Notes under the pieces: model-generated | What the model saw: the letters and a program-made list of their open reading frames with translations, nothing else | Database searches by the model: none | What the model was told of the DNA's origin: nothing | Translations under genes and position numbers: made by a program | Part shown: positions 4,032 through 38,660 of the stretch, piece by piece | How positions within the stretch are numbered: the first letter of the stretch is position 1 | Layout: the number at the start of each line of letters is the position of its first letter | DNA from: an uncultured Sphingomonadaceae bacterium | GTDB lineage: Bacteria > Pseudomonadota > Alphaproteobacteria > Sphingomonadales > Sphingomonadaceae | Direction: 5' to 3' | DNA length: 64,000 nucleotides | Assembly (NCBI GenBank): GCA_947497315.1 | Contig: CANMFX010000002.1 | Coordinates: 62,001-126,000 of the forward strand

Positions 4032-4092
4032 CGTTATCCGGCGACTATATTGATCGTCGGCAAGCCCTTTCCCTCGAGTACAAGAGTAACCC

Positions 4093-5655
4093 ATGGCCGT
4101 CCTTGATCAATCCACCACCGAGCAATTGAAATCCTATCTGACGAACTTGCGGCGCCCGATCAGCCTTGTTGCAACGCTAGATGAGAGCGAAAAATCATCT
4201 GAAATGCGCGAATTGCTGGAAACCATCGCTTCGCTGTCCGACAAAGTTGAAGCCGGATTTAATGGTACAAGCAGCAGGTGTCCTTCGTTCATGATAACTG
4301 CCGATGACGGTAAATCAGAGGTGGAGTTTGCCGGACTGCCGGTTGGTCACGAATTTTCCTCATTGATATTGGCATTGCTACATGTTGGCGGTCACCCGCC
4401 AAAGGAAGACGCTGAACTATTGGACAGTGTTCGTGATTTGGAGCGCAGTTTCCACTTCGAGACTTTCTTCTCGCTATCCTGCAAGAATTGCCCCGATGTG
4501 GTTCAGGCGCTTAACATCATGGCGGCGCTTAACCCGAATATCAGCCATACTGCGATTGACGGCGCGCTTTTCCAGGATGAAGTCGAAAAACGTAAGGTTA
4601 TGGCGGTTCCAACTATTTTGTTGAACGGTGAGCCATTTGGGTCTGGGCGTATGGATCTGGCGCAAATCGTCGCAAAGCTCGACAGCGATGTGTCGGCCAA
4701 GGCTGCAGAAAAGCTCTCGAGCAAAGATCCGTTTGATGTTCTTGTCGTCGGTGGCGGTCCTGCTGGCTCTGCCGCGGCAATTTATACCGCACGTAAGGGC
4801 ATTCGCACCGGTATCGTTTCCGAGCGATTTGGTGGCCAGCTTCTCGATACGCTTGGCATTGAAAATTTCATTTCAGTGCAACGTACGGAAGGTCCAAAAC
4901 TTGCAGCGGAACTGGAACAGCATGTTCGGGAATATGACGTTGATATTATGGATACCCAAAGGGCGGTAAAGCTAGCGCCGCCGAATGGTGATGGGTTACA
5001 TAAACTGCATCTGGAGAGTGGTGCTGAGCTCAAGGCAAAGACCATCATCCTGTCGACCGGTGCGCGCTGGCGCCAGATTGGGGTGCCGGGAGAAGACGAA
5101 TATCGCAACCGCGGTGTTGCCTATTGCCCACATTGTGATGGCCCATTGTATAAAGGCAAAGATGTCGCGGTTATCGGCGGCGGCAATAGCGGTGTTGAGG
5201 CGGCGATTGATTTGGCTGGGATAGTCAAACATGTGACACTGATCGAGTTTGATAGCAACCTGCGTGCTGATGCCGTGTTGCAATCAAAGCTCGCCAGTCT
5301 GCCAAATGTTGATGTTTTGAAATCCACCCAGACAACTGAGGTTCTGGGAGACGGCGATAAAGTAACTGGTCTGCGTTATACTGATCGTGACACCGAACAG
5401 AGCCATGACATTAATCTGGACGGCATCTTCGTGCAGATTGGACTGGTTCCCAATAGCGAATGGCTGACTGATACGCTTGCGCTAACGCAGCACGGCGAGA
5501 TTGATGTGAATGAAAACGGTGCGACGAATCTACCGGGTGTTTTTGCAGCGGGTGATGCTACCATCGCGCCCTATAAGCAGATCGTTGTCGCGATGGGTGA
5601 GGGGTCCAAAGCAGGATTGTCGGCGTTCGATTATCTCATCCGGTCAGGTAGCTGA
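4093..5655 (+). CDS. ahpF: Alkyl hydroperoxide reductase subunit F
   Basis: FAD- and NAD(P)H-dependent disulfide reductase that passes electrons to AhpC. Its 520 residues match the family. The N-terminal double-thioredoxin domain carries its CxxC at Cys130/Cys133 (SLSCKNCPD). The FAD-binding [10 protein letters not shown] motif is at about 220-229. The thioredoxin-reductase redox CxxC is Cys345/Cys348 (YCPHCDG), followed by the NAD(P)H-binding [12 protein letters not shown]. The C-terminal FAD motif is GVFAAGD. It lies directly downstream of ahpC and is presumably co-expressed with it. Confidence 0.98.
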
Positions 5656-31333: not shown

Positions 31334-31419
31334 GAAATTCGCGCTTCGTCACGCAGCTTCTATTGCTACCCCTACCAATCTTCACTGGACCTTCTGGGAT
31401 GACCGCACTAACCTGCGAC

Positions 31420-31515
31420 TCATCCCCGGGGAGCCTGTGCGTGAACGCAGGTTGAGAGCGGAATAAGCCGCGACCCGTTGAACCTGATCCCGTTAACCCG
31501 GGCGGAGGGAGGGAG
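31420..31515 (+). ncRNA. TPP riboswitch (THI element)
   Basis: Leader RNA that binds thiamine pyrophosphate and turns down thiC. Hallmarks are all in order: CCCCGGGGAGCC, a P3-like arm CCTGTGCGTGAACGCAGG, the TGAGAG core, then GACCCGTTGAACCTGATCCC and GTTAACCCGGGCGGAGGGA. It ends about 50 bp before the thiC start. Confidence 0.96.
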
Positions 31516-31524
31516 CGGTGTTAG

Positions 31525-33477
<1,953 letters not shown>

Positions 33478-35308: not shown

Positions 35309-36208
35309 ATGACCATTGAAAACCCCGCTCCAATCACCCCGAAAAGCGCAGAGCAATGGCGCAAGGACGGACAATTTGTCGACTGGCAGGGCCACCAGAT
35401 ATTCGTCCGCACCGGCGGCGACCCATCCGCGCCGCCGCTCCTCCTGCTCCACGGCTTTCCGACCTCCAGCCTCGACTGGCTGCCGCTATGGGCGGATCTG
35501 ACGGCGCGTTATCGGATGGTGGCGTTTGATTTTCTCGGCTTTGGCTTTTCCGACAAGCCGAAGCGGCATCACTATGATTTGCAGGAACAGACTGATCTCG
35601 CGGCGCATCTGGCCGAGACTTTATTGGGTCAGGATTTCCATCTGCTCGTCCATGATTATGGCGTCAGCCCGGGGCAGGAACTGCTCGCGCGCCATGGCGA
35701 GGGCAGGCTGGCGCACAGGGTGCTGAGCTGCGCTTTTCTCAACGGCGGCCTGCTGCCCGCGCAGCATCGCGCGCGGCCTATTCAAAAGCTGCTCACCGGA
35801 CCCTTTGGCTGGCTGTTCGTGCACCTGATGAGCCGGGAGCGTTTCGGCAAAAGCTTTAGCGAGGTTTTCGGCAAGGATACGCAGCCCGGCGCAGCGGAAC
35901 TCGACGCCTATTGGGGCGTCATCTGCACAAATGGCGGCGACCGGCTGCAACATAAGTTGCTCCACTATATCGCCGACCGCCGCACCCACGGTCCCCGCTG
36001 GGAAGCCCAGCTCACCCACCCGCCATGCCCGATCGCGCTGATTAACGGCACCCAGGACCCGGTCTCCGGCGGCCATCTGGTCGACGCGGTCGCGGCGCTG
36101 AACCCGCGGGTTCCGGCGTGGCGGCTGGACCATCTGGGCCATTATCCGCAGACCGAAGGCGCAGCGGATGTGATGGCGGCTTATGCGGAGTTTCGGGGTG
36201 GGTTGTGA
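35309..36208 (+). CDS. Alpha/beta hydrolase, MEST/haloalkane-dehalogenase-like
   Basis: Cytoplasmic alpha/beta hydrolase of 299 residues. The oxyanion region is LLLLHGFPTSSLDW, the nucleophile elbow VHDYGVS puts an Asp (116) as nucleophile, the likely acid is in NGTQDPVSGGH and the base in LGHYPQTEG. An Asp nucleophile indicates epoxide-hydrolase or dehalogenase chemistry, or a MEST-like protein, rather than an esterase. It borders the AT-rich RT island on its 3' side. Confidence 0.85.
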   Translation: MTIENPAPITPKSAEQWRKDGQFVDWQGHQIFVRTGGDPSAPPLLLLHGFPTSSLDWLPLWADLTARYRMVAFDFLGFGFSDKPKRHHYDLQEQTDLAAHLAETLLGQDFHLLVHDYGVSPGQELLARHGEGRLAHRVLSCAFLNGGLLPAQHRARPIQKLLTGPFGWLFVHLMSRERFGKSFSEVFGKDTQPGAAELDAYWGVICTNGGDRLQHKLLHYIADRRTHGPRWEAQLTHPPCPIALINGTQDPVSGGHLVDAVAALNPRVPAWRLDHLGHYPQTEGAADVMAAYAEFRGGL

Positions 36209-36319
36209 GGGGGAAGATTAATATTGTAAAAACATGTGGATAAACTTCCAATTCCCATTTCCAACTACCGAAGAACATGGTAGGAACAAAATCGGCAGCG
36301 ACACCGTAAGCCGGTTTGC

Positions 36320-36349
36320 TTGACTAAGTGAGAACTCGGTCTTTTTGAT
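36320..36349 (+). promoter_or_regulatory. Candidate promoter at left edge of RT island
   Basis: TTGACT (36320-36325) is followed after 18 bp by TTTGAT (36344-36349, four of six matches to TATAAT). Initiation would fall near 36356, almost at the first base of direct repeat copy A (36353). Weak on its own; the position makes it notable. A CTACC-N9-GGTAG inverted repeat lies upstream at 36265-36283. Confidence 0.3.
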
Positions 36350-36352
36350 TTG

Positions 36353-36457
36353 GTGCGTCATTCCGACGAATATGCCTGCATCGCCTTTGAGGCGCCTATT
36401 GGGCAATTGGTCGACATGGCTTCAGCCGTAAGTCCAAGATTGGACCCAAGGCGCACT
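36353..36457 (+). repeat. Direct repeat copy A (105 bp) of the RT island
   Basis: Perfectly identical to copy B at 36689-36793, offset by 336 bp (a multiple of 3). It begins GTGCG and ends CGCACT, so its ends can pair, and inside it CGCC-TTTGA-GGCG and GTCCA-AGAT-TGGAC can form hairpins. It is open in the frame of the small ORF downstream, encoding VRHSDEYACIAFE... to ...LDPRRT (35 codons), but lacks a good start codon of its own. Confidence 0.97.
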
Positions 36458-36478
36458 ATTTGGAAAGGAGATCGTAAA

Positions 36479-36820
36479 ATGCCTCATATTACCCCGAGAA
36501 CTTATGAGGTTGGGGATCACTTCTGTCGGAGGCTTTCTGGCTCGCGGCCTAGCATATCAGCCGTTCCGGTTGATCAGCCCGCTACCATCTGGCGCGGCGA
36601 AAGGTTTGTTCATGTTATGTTCCGGCCTTTAGTTGCAATAGCTGGGGCGTTTATGCTAATGTTTCAATGCGCGTACAGCATTAATGCTGTGCGTCATTCC
36701 GACGAATATGCCTGCATCGCCTTTGAGGCGCCTATTGGGCAATTGGTCGACATGGCTTCAGCCGTAAGTCCAAGATTGGACCCAAGGCGCACTGGTGTAC
36801 CGCTAACTTGGGTAATTTAA
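36479..36820 (+). CDS. Small ORF of RT island, C-terminus encoded by repeat copy B
   Basis: A 113-residue frame from ATG 36479 with a strong AAAGGAG 8 bp upstream. Residues 1-40 are polar (PHITPRTYEVGDHFCRRLSG), 43-68 form one likely membrane segment (FVHVMFRPLVAIAGAFMLMF), and residues 71-105 are exactly repeat copy B, followed by GVPLTWVI. I recognise no family. The same frame is open upstream through copy A from 36350. It precedes the RT by 21 bp. It could be an RT partner protein, a toxin-like membrane peptide, or a chance frame in a structured RNA. Confidence 0.45.
   Translation: MPHITPRTYEVGDHFCRRLSGSRPSISAVPVDQPATIWRGERFVHVMFRPLVAIAGAFMLMFQCAYSINAVRHSDEYACIAFEAPIGQLVDMASAVSPRLDPRRTGVPLTWVI
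36672..36693 (+). repeat. Palindrome abutting repeat copy B
   Basis: ACAGCATTAATGCTGT (36675-36690) is a perfect 16-bp palindrome whose right end overlaps the first two bases of copy B. In RNA the stem can extend three more pairs (one G-U) to 36672-36693. Copy A has no such palindrome at its start. Confidence 0.8.
36689..36793 (+). repeat. Direct repeat copy B (105 bp) of the RT island
   Basis: Identical at all 105 positions to copy A (36353-36457), including every adenine. It lies 49 bp before the RT start and forms the last third of the small ORF. The identity implies recent duplication or active homogenisation. Confidence 0.97.
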
Positions 36821-36841
36821 GTGAATGTTGGCGGCAACTAG

Positions 36842-38044
36842 ATGACAAATTCTTTCAACAATGCTTTTTCGACAAGAAGTTTGAATTCTGTTTGGGGGTT
36901 TGAAAAAAGCCGGCTGACTAGGTCTTGCTTTGGAATAGATCGCAAATCTGGCAAAGATTTCCAAGCAAACCTTCACTACGAGTTATTCAAAATTCGAGAA
37001 CGAGTAAACGGCAAATTCAAAGCCTCCAACCTTTTGGCAATTGCAAAACCAAAACTCACCGGTGGTAACCGAATTATTTGTGTTCCCACAATATCGGACA
37101 GGTTGATTCAGTTTGCTCTTTTGACCGAGCTTCGGCCATCATTAGTTCAAAAAGGTCTCTTAAACTCAATAAGCTATGGTTTGGTGAGGGATGCAAATCG
37201 CGGAGTTGTGGATGCAAGAAAGAGAGCATTGGAATTTCGACGCCACCATCAATGGGTTTACAAGGCCGATATCCAAAAATTCTTCGATAACATCCCTAGG
37301 GAAGAGCTTAAAAAACTCACCAAACGGGCTGTAAGGCGGACATCCTTACATAAGATCATTTTGCCATTTGTTGATTGTGAAATATCGGATGGGTTTGATC
37401 AAGATTGGCAAACAATTATTTCGAAAGCAGGAATAGTTACCGGTCATGGAGTCAGGCAAGGAATGCCTCTTTCTCCTTACTTTGCGGGCATAATTTTGAG
37501 TCCTTTGGATAAAATTTTGGAAAGCAGGCAATATCGTGTAATCCGTTATGTAGATGATATTGTTGCTTTTTTTGACACAAAAAAAGAATGTGATGACTTC
37601 CATAATTTACTTGTCGAACAATTGTCGGAAATCGGTCTTTCTATTGGTTCAATTGGCGAAGCGAATTCAAAGACCAATATTTATGAACCGCTTCAATCCG
37701 CAGAGTTTCTTGGCATGGAAATCTGTGCCAAAAACAGCGAGGGATATGAATTGAGAATTCCGCAATCATCTATTGAAAAAGTGACGGCAAAATTCGCAGA
37801 TTCTGGCGATATAGATGTTTTGTTGAGGAAAAATATCTCGCTAACTCGGCTAGGCGCTTACTTGGATTCAATGCAATCAGGTTATCATCAAGCATACTCT
37901 GGCGCTGCCAATTATAATGAACTGCGTGCACAGACGGAAAATTTGAAAGAAGCTGCCATGACCCAAGTTCTGGAGGAACTTTTTGGAGAAGCGGCACTAT
38001 CAAAACTATCGAGTAAAAAACGTAAGTTCATTGGGGTCAGTTGA
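36842..38044 (+). CDS. Reverse transcriptase, group II-like / unknown-group type
   Basis: RNA-directed DNA polymerase, 400 residues, with an intact catalytic core: fingers motif GGNRIICVPTISDRLIQ (74-90), SYGLVRDANRG (111-121), palm Asp in KADIQKFFD (Asp143), RQGMPLSP (205-212), YVDDI (Asp238/Asp239) and a distal FLGMEI (289-294). A GID-type N-terminal segment (31-33) resembles RT0 of group II-like enzymes. After residue 300 there is only a helical tail of about 100 residues: no maturase X domain typical of introns and no HNH. Motif 4 is QGxxxSP, not the xGxxxSQ of diversity-generating retroelements. Base composition is far more AT-rich than the neighbours, indicating transfer. Likely a defence or retron-like RT; the class needs phylogeny. 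Confidence 0.9.
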   Translation: MTNSFNNAFSTRSLNSVWGFEKSRLTRSCFGIDRKSGKDFQANLHYELFKIRERVNGKFKASNLLAIAKPKLTGGNRIICVPTISDRLIQFALLTELRPSLVQKGLLNSISYGLVRDANRGVVDARKRALEFRRHHQWVYKADIQKFFDNIPREELKKLTKRAVRRTSLHKIILPFVDCEISDGFDQDWQTIISKAGIVTGHGVRQGMPLSPYFAGIILSPLDKILESRQYRVIRYVDDIVAFFDTKKECDDFHNLLVEQLSEIGLSIGSIGEANSKTNIYEPLQSAEFLGMEICAKNSEGYELRIPQSSIEKVTAKFADSGDIDVLLRKNISLTRLGAYLDSMQSGYHQAYSGAANYNELRAQTENLKEAAMTQVLEELFGEAALSKLSSKKRKFIGVS

Positions 38045-38117
38045 ATCTTGATTTCAGGATTATGATGACAGTTTATCAAATTCCTATAACCCTCGAACCT
38101 CCAACCCAACACCACCC

Positions 38118-38660
38118 TCAACTCTGATCCGTCACCCTTACCAAACTCCAATCATAGCCAAGCTCCTTCACCCGCGCCTCAATCCGGGCGCGCACTTGCG
38201 GTTCGGGCTGCGCCTGACGCGTGAGCATCCACAGGTAACGCCCGCTGGGTTCGCCGACAATCGCCCAGCTATAATCTTCCGCCCGGTCCAGCACCCAATA
38301 ATCGCCGTAAAAGGGGCCAAAGAAGGAGACTTTCAGCTTCGCATTCCCGCTACCCTCGACGATTTTCGCCTTGCCCTTGGCGGTGGTGGTCTTGCCCTCT
38401 TTGGTGCAGCTGTTGATGACCTTGATCTTGCCGTCTTTGCGCAGGGAATAGTCGGCGGTCACGCCGTCGCAGCCTTTTTGAAAGGGCGCTTCATAGCGCG
38501 CCATTTCAAACCATTTGCCGAGATAGCGATCCAGTTCCACCGCCTTGGCGGGCTCTGGCACCGCGTTGTTGCCAACGGGCCCGGGCTTGCCAGCGCACGC
38601 ACTGATCAGGGCAAAGGGTAACAGGCTAAGCGCGAGCTTTTGGGTGGCCGATAGTGTCAT
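38118..38660 (-). CDS. Lipocalin family lipoprotein (Blc-like)
   Basis: Outer-membrane-anchored lipocalin that binds lipids or other hydrophobic ligands. From ATG 38660 (GGAG 6 bp upstream) it has 180 residues; lipobox LISAC predicts lipidated Cys22. The lipocalin signature LDRYLGKWFEMARYEAPFQKGC is followed by the barrel strands VTADYSLRKDGKIKVINSC and YGDYWVLDRAEDYSWAIVGEP, ending in LWMLTRQAQPEPQV. An upstream ATG at 38672 is in frame. It converges with the RT gene, 73 bp away. Confidence 0.92.
   Translation of the reverse strand: MTLSATQKLALSLLPFALISACAGKPGPVGNNAVPEPAKAVELDRYLGKWFEMARYEAPFQKGCDGVTADYSLRKDGKIKVINSCTKEGKTTTAKGKAKIVEGSGNAKLKVSFFGPFYGDYWVLDRAEDYSWAIVGEPSGRYLWMLTRQAQPEPQVRARIEARVKELGYDWSLVRVTDQS

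Follow-up and report, generated by a model that had tools for sequence, protein, structure and literature searches.

Why is a bacterial reverse transcriptase (RT) gene preceded by two long and identical direct repeats? This question is raised by a locus in a 64,000-nucleotide (nt) stretch of DNA, referred to here as the window, from an uncultured Sphingomonadaceae bacterium (assembly GCA_947497315.1, contig CANMFX010000002.1, positions 62,001 to 126,000 of the forward strand). As an initial annotation had described, copy A (36353-36457) and copy B (36689-36793) are identical at 105 of 105 positions, with a period of 336 bp, and a perfect 105-bp repeat is far too unlikely to have arisen by chance. 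They are followed by an undamaged RT open reading frame (ORF; 36842-38044) of 400 amino acids (aa) with the motifs RQGMPLSP and YVDD, so that the intact YVDD enzyme annotated earlier is indeed present. On balance, we lean towards reading the locus as a two-part anti-phage module, in which a cassette of structured RNA (A, spacer, B, and a hairpin) and the RT would produce tandem complementary DNA (cDNA) and, from this, an endless membrane protein. The template jumping, second strand, expression, toxicity, and defence function in this reading are what we infer from sequence comparison.

Anatomy of the cassette

The features of the locus are the following:

36303..36315, plus strand: small hairpin (ACCG..CGGT) 5' of copy A, seen by eye and absent from the consensus fold
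36353..36457, plus strand: repeat copy A, 105 nt, predicted structured RNA that precedes the linear ORF as its leader; no mismatch to B, fold of -43 kcal/mol (z -3.55), consensus fold with relatives
36353..36688, plus strand: predicted tandem cDNA unit of 336 nt, or 112 codons; when circularised, its sense frame has no stop and the other five frames have 4-8 stops
36458..36688, plus strand: spacer with the Shine-Dalgarno sequence AAGGAG (36465-36470), the ATG at 36479, and one hydrophobic segment (~36608-36664)
36479..36820, plus strand: linear ORF of 113 aa, comprising a membrane segment, repeat B, 8 unique residues, and the stop
36689..36793, plus strand: repeat copy B, predicted structured and coding (C-terminal)
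36800..36834, plus strand: hairpin CCGCTAAC/GTTGGCGG in the B-RT interval, its loop holding the ORF stop; based on the alignment (98.4% of cells paired) and minimum free energy (MFE) folds
36842..38044, plus strand: reverse transcriptase, 400 aa, YVDD; RVT_1 is the sole Pfam match above cut-off

The hairpin upstream of A is a possible 5' boundary of the template, and the one between B and the RT gene is possibly the docking or start site of the RT. The best Shine-Dalgarno-backed start of a linear ORF is the ATG at 36479, directly 3' of copy A, and with this start B is coding, at the C-terminal end, and A is the leader of the linear gene. Its stop codon lies 25-27 nt 3' of B, inside the loop of the pre-RT hairpin. 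The initial annotation had placed a short ORF between the copies; an ORF is present, but the mechanically listed one (36350-36820) runs in one frame through A and B alike, and the linear ORF from 36479 includes B. The greater AT-richness of the RT region compared to its neighbours was borne out, with a GC content in 500-bp windows of 0.39-0.43 across the RT versus 0.54-0.64 within ~2 kb on either side. Both the RT and the region upstream of it gave a single match in their own genome (9 contigs).

Conservation of the repeats, the reading frame, and the RNA fold

Relatives of the RT, with 22-59% identity, were found in other Sphingomonadales, Methylobacterium, Acinetobacter, and viral contigs (L039, L102, and L103). 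Within the order, 4 of 396 genomes contained one, the genome of the window included. Relatives on plasmid records were taken from the best matches of a longer list, and a viral scan with one Acinetobacter RT as query found no relative. A non-exhaustive search of a species-genome collection with two peptide patterns gave at least 27 loci, 17 of which belong to the family (L012-L028), and 5 of the 10 non-family loci from this search carried the motif of diversity-generating retroelements (DGRs). Together, the family loci number 26, namely the window, L006-L010, L012-L028, L039, L102, and L103. In a quick tree of 51 RTs, the 21 family members included formed a group (Shimodaira-Hasegawa-like approximate likelihood ratio test, SH-aLRT, 98) separate from 6 group II intron and 17 DGR references, so the phylogeny that had been proposed as a check places the family apart from these few references and not inside group II introns; with group II and DGR RTs as its references, the tree cannot be read for a position among UG or DRT enzymes. 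L102 and L103 stand outside the tree and were assigned by alignment and motif. Of note, the Acinetobacter locus L011 has a repeat region equal to that of L009, and 766 bp of its RT gene are inverted (4043-4808), which breaks the RT.

The relatives also retain the upstream repeats: a repeat pair of 63-150 nt is present in 21 of the 26 family loci, with 96.8-100% identity between A and B of the same locus and no difference at all in 12 of the 21. Two of the loci lacking a pair, L021 and L102, lie on contigs that begin 69 and ~150-200 nt before the RT, respectively. A BLAST comparison of 19 repeats (E 1e-3) gave matches only within L006/L022/L023/L027 and within L012/L013/L016-L019, and nine repeats, including that of the window, matched no other; despite the lack of BLAST matches for some, the Sphingomonadales repeats could be aligned with MAFFT. 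Other repetitive DNA was seen downstream of two family RTs, a short-period tandem array in an annotated gene behind the repeat-less Acetobacter RT (L008, 6041-6356), and a direct repeat of 188 bp in L013 (6280-6467 and 7401-7588, 87% identical).

In 20 of the 21 repeat-bearing loci, the distance from repeat to repeat is divisible by three, at twelve different lengths (303, 306, 336, 339, 342, 378, 381, 387, 396, 399, 423, and 453 nt), and when the unit is circularised, each of these 20 loci has exactly one sense frame without a stop, the other frames containing up to 24 stops. L103, which was found once this rule had been set, conforms to it with a period of 453 nt and 9 and 14 stops in the remaining sense frames. 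L016 and L039 additionally have open antisense frames, so it is not in antisense that the open frame is conserved. When the units were shuffled with preservation of dinucleotides (1000 trials), a sense frame was open in 0-44% of cases, and in less than 3% for the window, L103, and all eight Acinetobacter units tested. In 15 of 19 loci, a start codon is located 20-97 nt 3' of A and is preceded by 4 nt or more that match the Shine-Dalgarno sequence (L007 and L026 are outside this count); the Shine-Dalgarno sequence is weaker in L022, L023, and L027 and not evident in L103. For a linear gene that starts behind A, the frame of A would be of no consequence; such a gene accounts for the open spacer and B, but not for A and the leader being open in the same frame. 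The leader, from A to the assumed start, is open in all 20 loci tested, and an in-frame stop is found 0-32 codons 5' of A in 19 of the 20 open-frame loci and 86 codons upstream in L018. A hydropathy of at least 1.8 over a 19-residue window was reached in 17 of the 18 units tested.

Covariation was analysed in an alignment of nine Sphingomonadales B regions, in which L016 is cut before the hairpin and L014 is represented by its solo copy. The consensus comprises 34 pairs with 86.9% of cells paired, compared to 25-46% in slid controls, a measure that favours the consensus since it was derived from the same alignment. Pairs changed on both sides numbered 15 versus 8.0 in shuffles, and none of 500 shuffles scored as high; the covariation term computed by RNAalifold itself, at +0.3 to +0.5, spoke slightly against the structure. 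Judged from this alignment, the Sphingomonadales repeats covary as RNA. The hairpin between B and the RT gene was part of the MFE fold in 13 of the 15 loci folded, and in the other two, L010 and L019, an 8-bp stem is visible by eye, yet another fold is preferred. The initial annotation's idea of an RT paired with a repeat RNA is thus supported both by the recurrence of the pair in the family and by the covarying structure; the production of repeated cDNA and a role in defence, which it had also put forward, are likewise what we would infer. A search of the window cassette against Rfam gave no family at the gathering threshold and only two implausible ones below it, and thus no known RNA family or ribozyme.

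The two copies do not diverge independently. Between L006 and L023, there are 17 differences in A and 15 in B, of which 14 are common to both copies, with the same letters. The corresponding numbers are 12, 9, and 9 for L022 versus L023, 6, 6, and 6 for L012/L013, and 2, 2, and 2 for L017/L018. The opposite pattern is found in the closest differing Acinetobacter pair, L023 and L027, with 2 differences in A, 2 in B, and none in common. These shared changes indicate that one repeat gets copied onto the other, so that what had been called recent or active copying is better described as continuing concerted evolution. Either RecA conversion or RT-made cDNA would account for this homogenisation. 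In L006, L007, L022, and L026, a three-base difference between A and B persists at repeat positions 36-38 while the rest is nearly homogenised, and this difference may mark a functional asymmetry, for example a jump or start site.

A proposed mechanism and its alternatives

In the mechanism that we propose, the RT would bind the transcript close to the hairpin behind B and copy B, then the spacer, and then A. On reaching the 5' end of A, the growing cDNA could re-anneal to the identical B, after which synthesis would continue; with A of ~100 nt, no special motif is needed for this re-annealing. The predicted product is a tandem cDNA with a 336-nt unit, and once double-stranded, it could encode a very long protein, since each unit has a Shine-Dalgarno sequence, a start codon, a membrane segment, and no stop in the sense frame. 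This repeated membrane protein would probably be a toxic effector that is released on infection. More tentatively, the RTs may form a family outside the named DRTs, characterized by gene-sized A-B-A' templates, jumps between ~100-nt self-folding repeats, units of 300-450 bp, an endless membrane polymer, and homogenisation of their own repeats through the cDNA; we regard this broader proposal as plausible, yet somewhat doubtful.

Several observations weigh against such a module. One locus, L008, has no repeats, and L014 and L020 contain one copy only, that of L020 being 78% like the L103 repeat over 88 nt. In L026, the period is 395 nt, one base having been lost in the leader, and the frame is broken by 1 nt. 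The distances that are multiples of three come in part from related loci and are not independent, and shuffled leaders are open in 20-100% of cases, so that an open leader in a single locus is unremarkable save in L103 (2%). A 4-nt Shine-Dalgarno match, admittedly a lax criterion, also precedes a start within A in the window, L006, L010, L012, and L025, and an in-frame ATG is located 5' of A in L010, L017, and L028, where a linear protein with two repeat copies is therefore possible. The repeat folds of L006, L017, L023, and L025 were near random among the 10 folded, and the L025 unit has no clear hydrophobic segment (0.99). Substitutions are spread almost evenly over codon positions (24/25/26 for L012/L013 and 7/7/12 for L022/L023), hence the aa sequence is barely conserved, and what is kept seems, from these comparisons, to be openness and hydrophobicity rather than sequence. 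Finally, as A equals B, jumping creates no new junction and hence no new promoter of the kind formed in DRT2, and promoter scans gave 2 hits each, no better than shuffles.

In an alternative explanation, an ordinary small membrane-protein gene lies next to an RT gene, the repeat is either a structured RNA to which the RT binds both in the leader (A) and in the tail (B) or a peptide of which a linear protein contains one or two copies, RecA conversion keeps the copies alike, and no tandem product is made. The normal layout of the linear gene, with a Shine-Dalgarno sequence and ATG 3' of A and a stop shortly after B, agrees with this, as do the in-frame starts inside or before A at some loci and the structured RNA of the repeat. 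The single copies of L014 and L020 would then suggest plain recombination, or that one copy suffices. The solo copy of L014 (~4542-4640) has kept both outer flanks, which by eye resemble those of the L013 pair, and it looks as if A had recombined with B, or as if the assembly had collapsed. We nevertheless consider the ordinary gene rather unlikely, because it does not easily explain why the period is in threes and why 20 of 21 loci keep one frame open all the way from A through leader and spacer to B, and because the aa sequence is little conserved. Less probable still is a circular RNA or DNA, formed by processing or recombination of the repeats, as the tandem unit, with the RT merely copying the circle by rolling-circle synthesis. 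A circle would also yield an identical unit with an endless frame, and its processing site could reside in the structured repeats, but the window cassette has no Rfam match at the gathering threshold, and an inspection of the neighbouring genes by eye, not by profile scan, showed no gene for a recombinase or RNase that is regularly present.

Two further explanations start from known retroelements. An RT accompanied by two ~100-nt copies that are kept alike, of which one forms the 3' part of an ORF, is reminiscent of a DGR or of non-mutagenic retrohoming from A to B. We judge this very improbable, since the RT motif is RQGMPLSP and not of the GNxxSQ type, the family is a separate clade, and the 26 A/B differences found in 2358 bp, 16 of which involve an A, place that A in either copy, whereas in nine DGR controls, the adenines of one copy accounted for 83-100% of the differences and those of its partner for none. 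For a mutagenic DGR, the motif, clade, and difference pattern amount to a refutation. Hardly credible is a group II intron RT that has decayed or degenerated and next to which a duplication arose by accident. The best NCBIfam model for the window RT is indeed the group II model TIGR04416, yet its 138.8 bits fall short both of the cut-off of 300 and of the 376-421 bits reached by four group II references; this low score, the absent maturase domain, and the absence of group II RNA in the window led us to reject a decayed intron, and the duplication is moreover recurrent across the RT family.

Known systems and genomic setting

The module that we favour resembles DRT2 in combining an RT with a cis-encoded RNA, in its unit in threes with a stop-free frame, and in the repeated toxic protein to be expected. 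In the theoretical products of 42 DRT2 homologues, the unit length is divisible by three and one frame crosses the unit without a stop, and the same two arguments accompanied experiments in that system (PMC12039810). The neo unit of DRT2 is 111-129 nt long and encoded on the strand opposite to the ncRNA, with jumps at 3-nt ACA motifs and a promoter formed at the junction (PMC12039810, PMC11100668). In contrast, the units described here are 303-453 nt and on the sense strand, with repeats of 63-150 nt and no new junction. The window RT reached 33.5 bits with the Drt2 model, the six relatives scanned at most 61, and group II references up to 63, against a cut-off of 390 bits; across 200 genomes, this model gave two partial matches under the cut-off, both in one genome. 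In the mechanism proposed here, the A-B-A' logic would be shared with DRT10/UG17 and telomerase. In DRT10, the cDNA re-anneals to the second copy of an A-B-A' template, A is only a few nt (2 nt in two systems), and the components include a SLATT protein and a 137-nt ncRNA (PMC12632851), whereas A and A' of the family measure 63-150 nt and are putative templates. In the window, no SLATT gene is adjacent to the locus.

The window RT scored 114 bits with the RT_UG17 model and 143 bits with the generic RT model of PADLOC. However, nine other hits of the UG17 model scored 140-179 bits, among them four group II RTs that exceed the cut-off of TIGR04416 (L058, L061, L063, and L065) and one RT with the DGR motif (L064), so the UG17 score of the window RT carries no evidential weight, and an assignment to UG17/DRT10 by hidden Markov model was dropped. 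True UG17 was absent at E 1e-60 from the 48 genomes of the class of G446, a small class, and a family-profile search of the same genomes gave 10 of 48 at 143-182 bits, several coinciding with UG17-model hits. Among retron models, the best match was retron_St85 with 48 bits against a cut-off of 235, and with no Rfam match in the cassette, nothing marks the locus as a retron. The likeness to DGRs is confined to an RT with two ~100-nt near-copies, as the family lacks one-sided adenine differences and has another RT motif and clade; that to group II intron RTs lies in the nearest NCBIfam model, with under half the score of the four references. Long template repeats do not occur in the accessible part of a 2026 table of DRT1-DRT9 (PMC13213688), nor are they mentioned in the accessible sections of PMC13174585 and PMC8934634, and searches of the open-licence PMC literature, which excludes subscription papers and most preprints, for defence RTs with such repeats or endless frames brought up no description of this layout.

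The cassette is flanked by an abhydrolase and a lipocalin gene (likely hotspot 36208-38118). The lipocalin flank was matched in 12 of 32 genus genomes (own genome counted; two weakly), while the repeat region was found in one of the 32, its own. In eight relatives from the genus, the interval between this abhydrolase and this lipocalin gene is occupied by different genes. A PADLOC scan of 10 of the 15 ORFs listed at the site, from seven relatives, found matches in four, to restriction-modification, PDC-M41A/B, PD-Lambda-5 A/B, and HNH effector-like genes, and none in three. The gene content of these relatives suggests that the abhydrolase-lipocalin interval is likely a defence hotspot, and this setting is the one line of evidence for a defence role of the RT cassette at the same site. 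Further upstream, a TPP riboswitch is present in the 31417-33477 region of the window, 2.9 kb 5' of the cassette, together with an ORF that by eye looks thiC-like. In L012 and L014, an ORF of this kind directly precedes the RT cassette in the list of ORFs, and in L015 it lies one ORF further upstream; the thiC-like neighbourhood is perhaps a shared insertion spot.

With ~1.8 kb, the cassette is small and easy to test. If our reading is correct, identical repeats, a period in threes, and one endless frame would provide a simple rule to find hidden genes. The system would join the outcome of DRT2, a never-ending ORF, with the logic of DRT10 and telomerase. It would also mean that reverse-transcribed never-ending genes are not peculiar to DRT2 but have arisen at least twice, once with jumps at 3-nt motifs and once, on the opposite strand, with long identical repeats as the jumping device.
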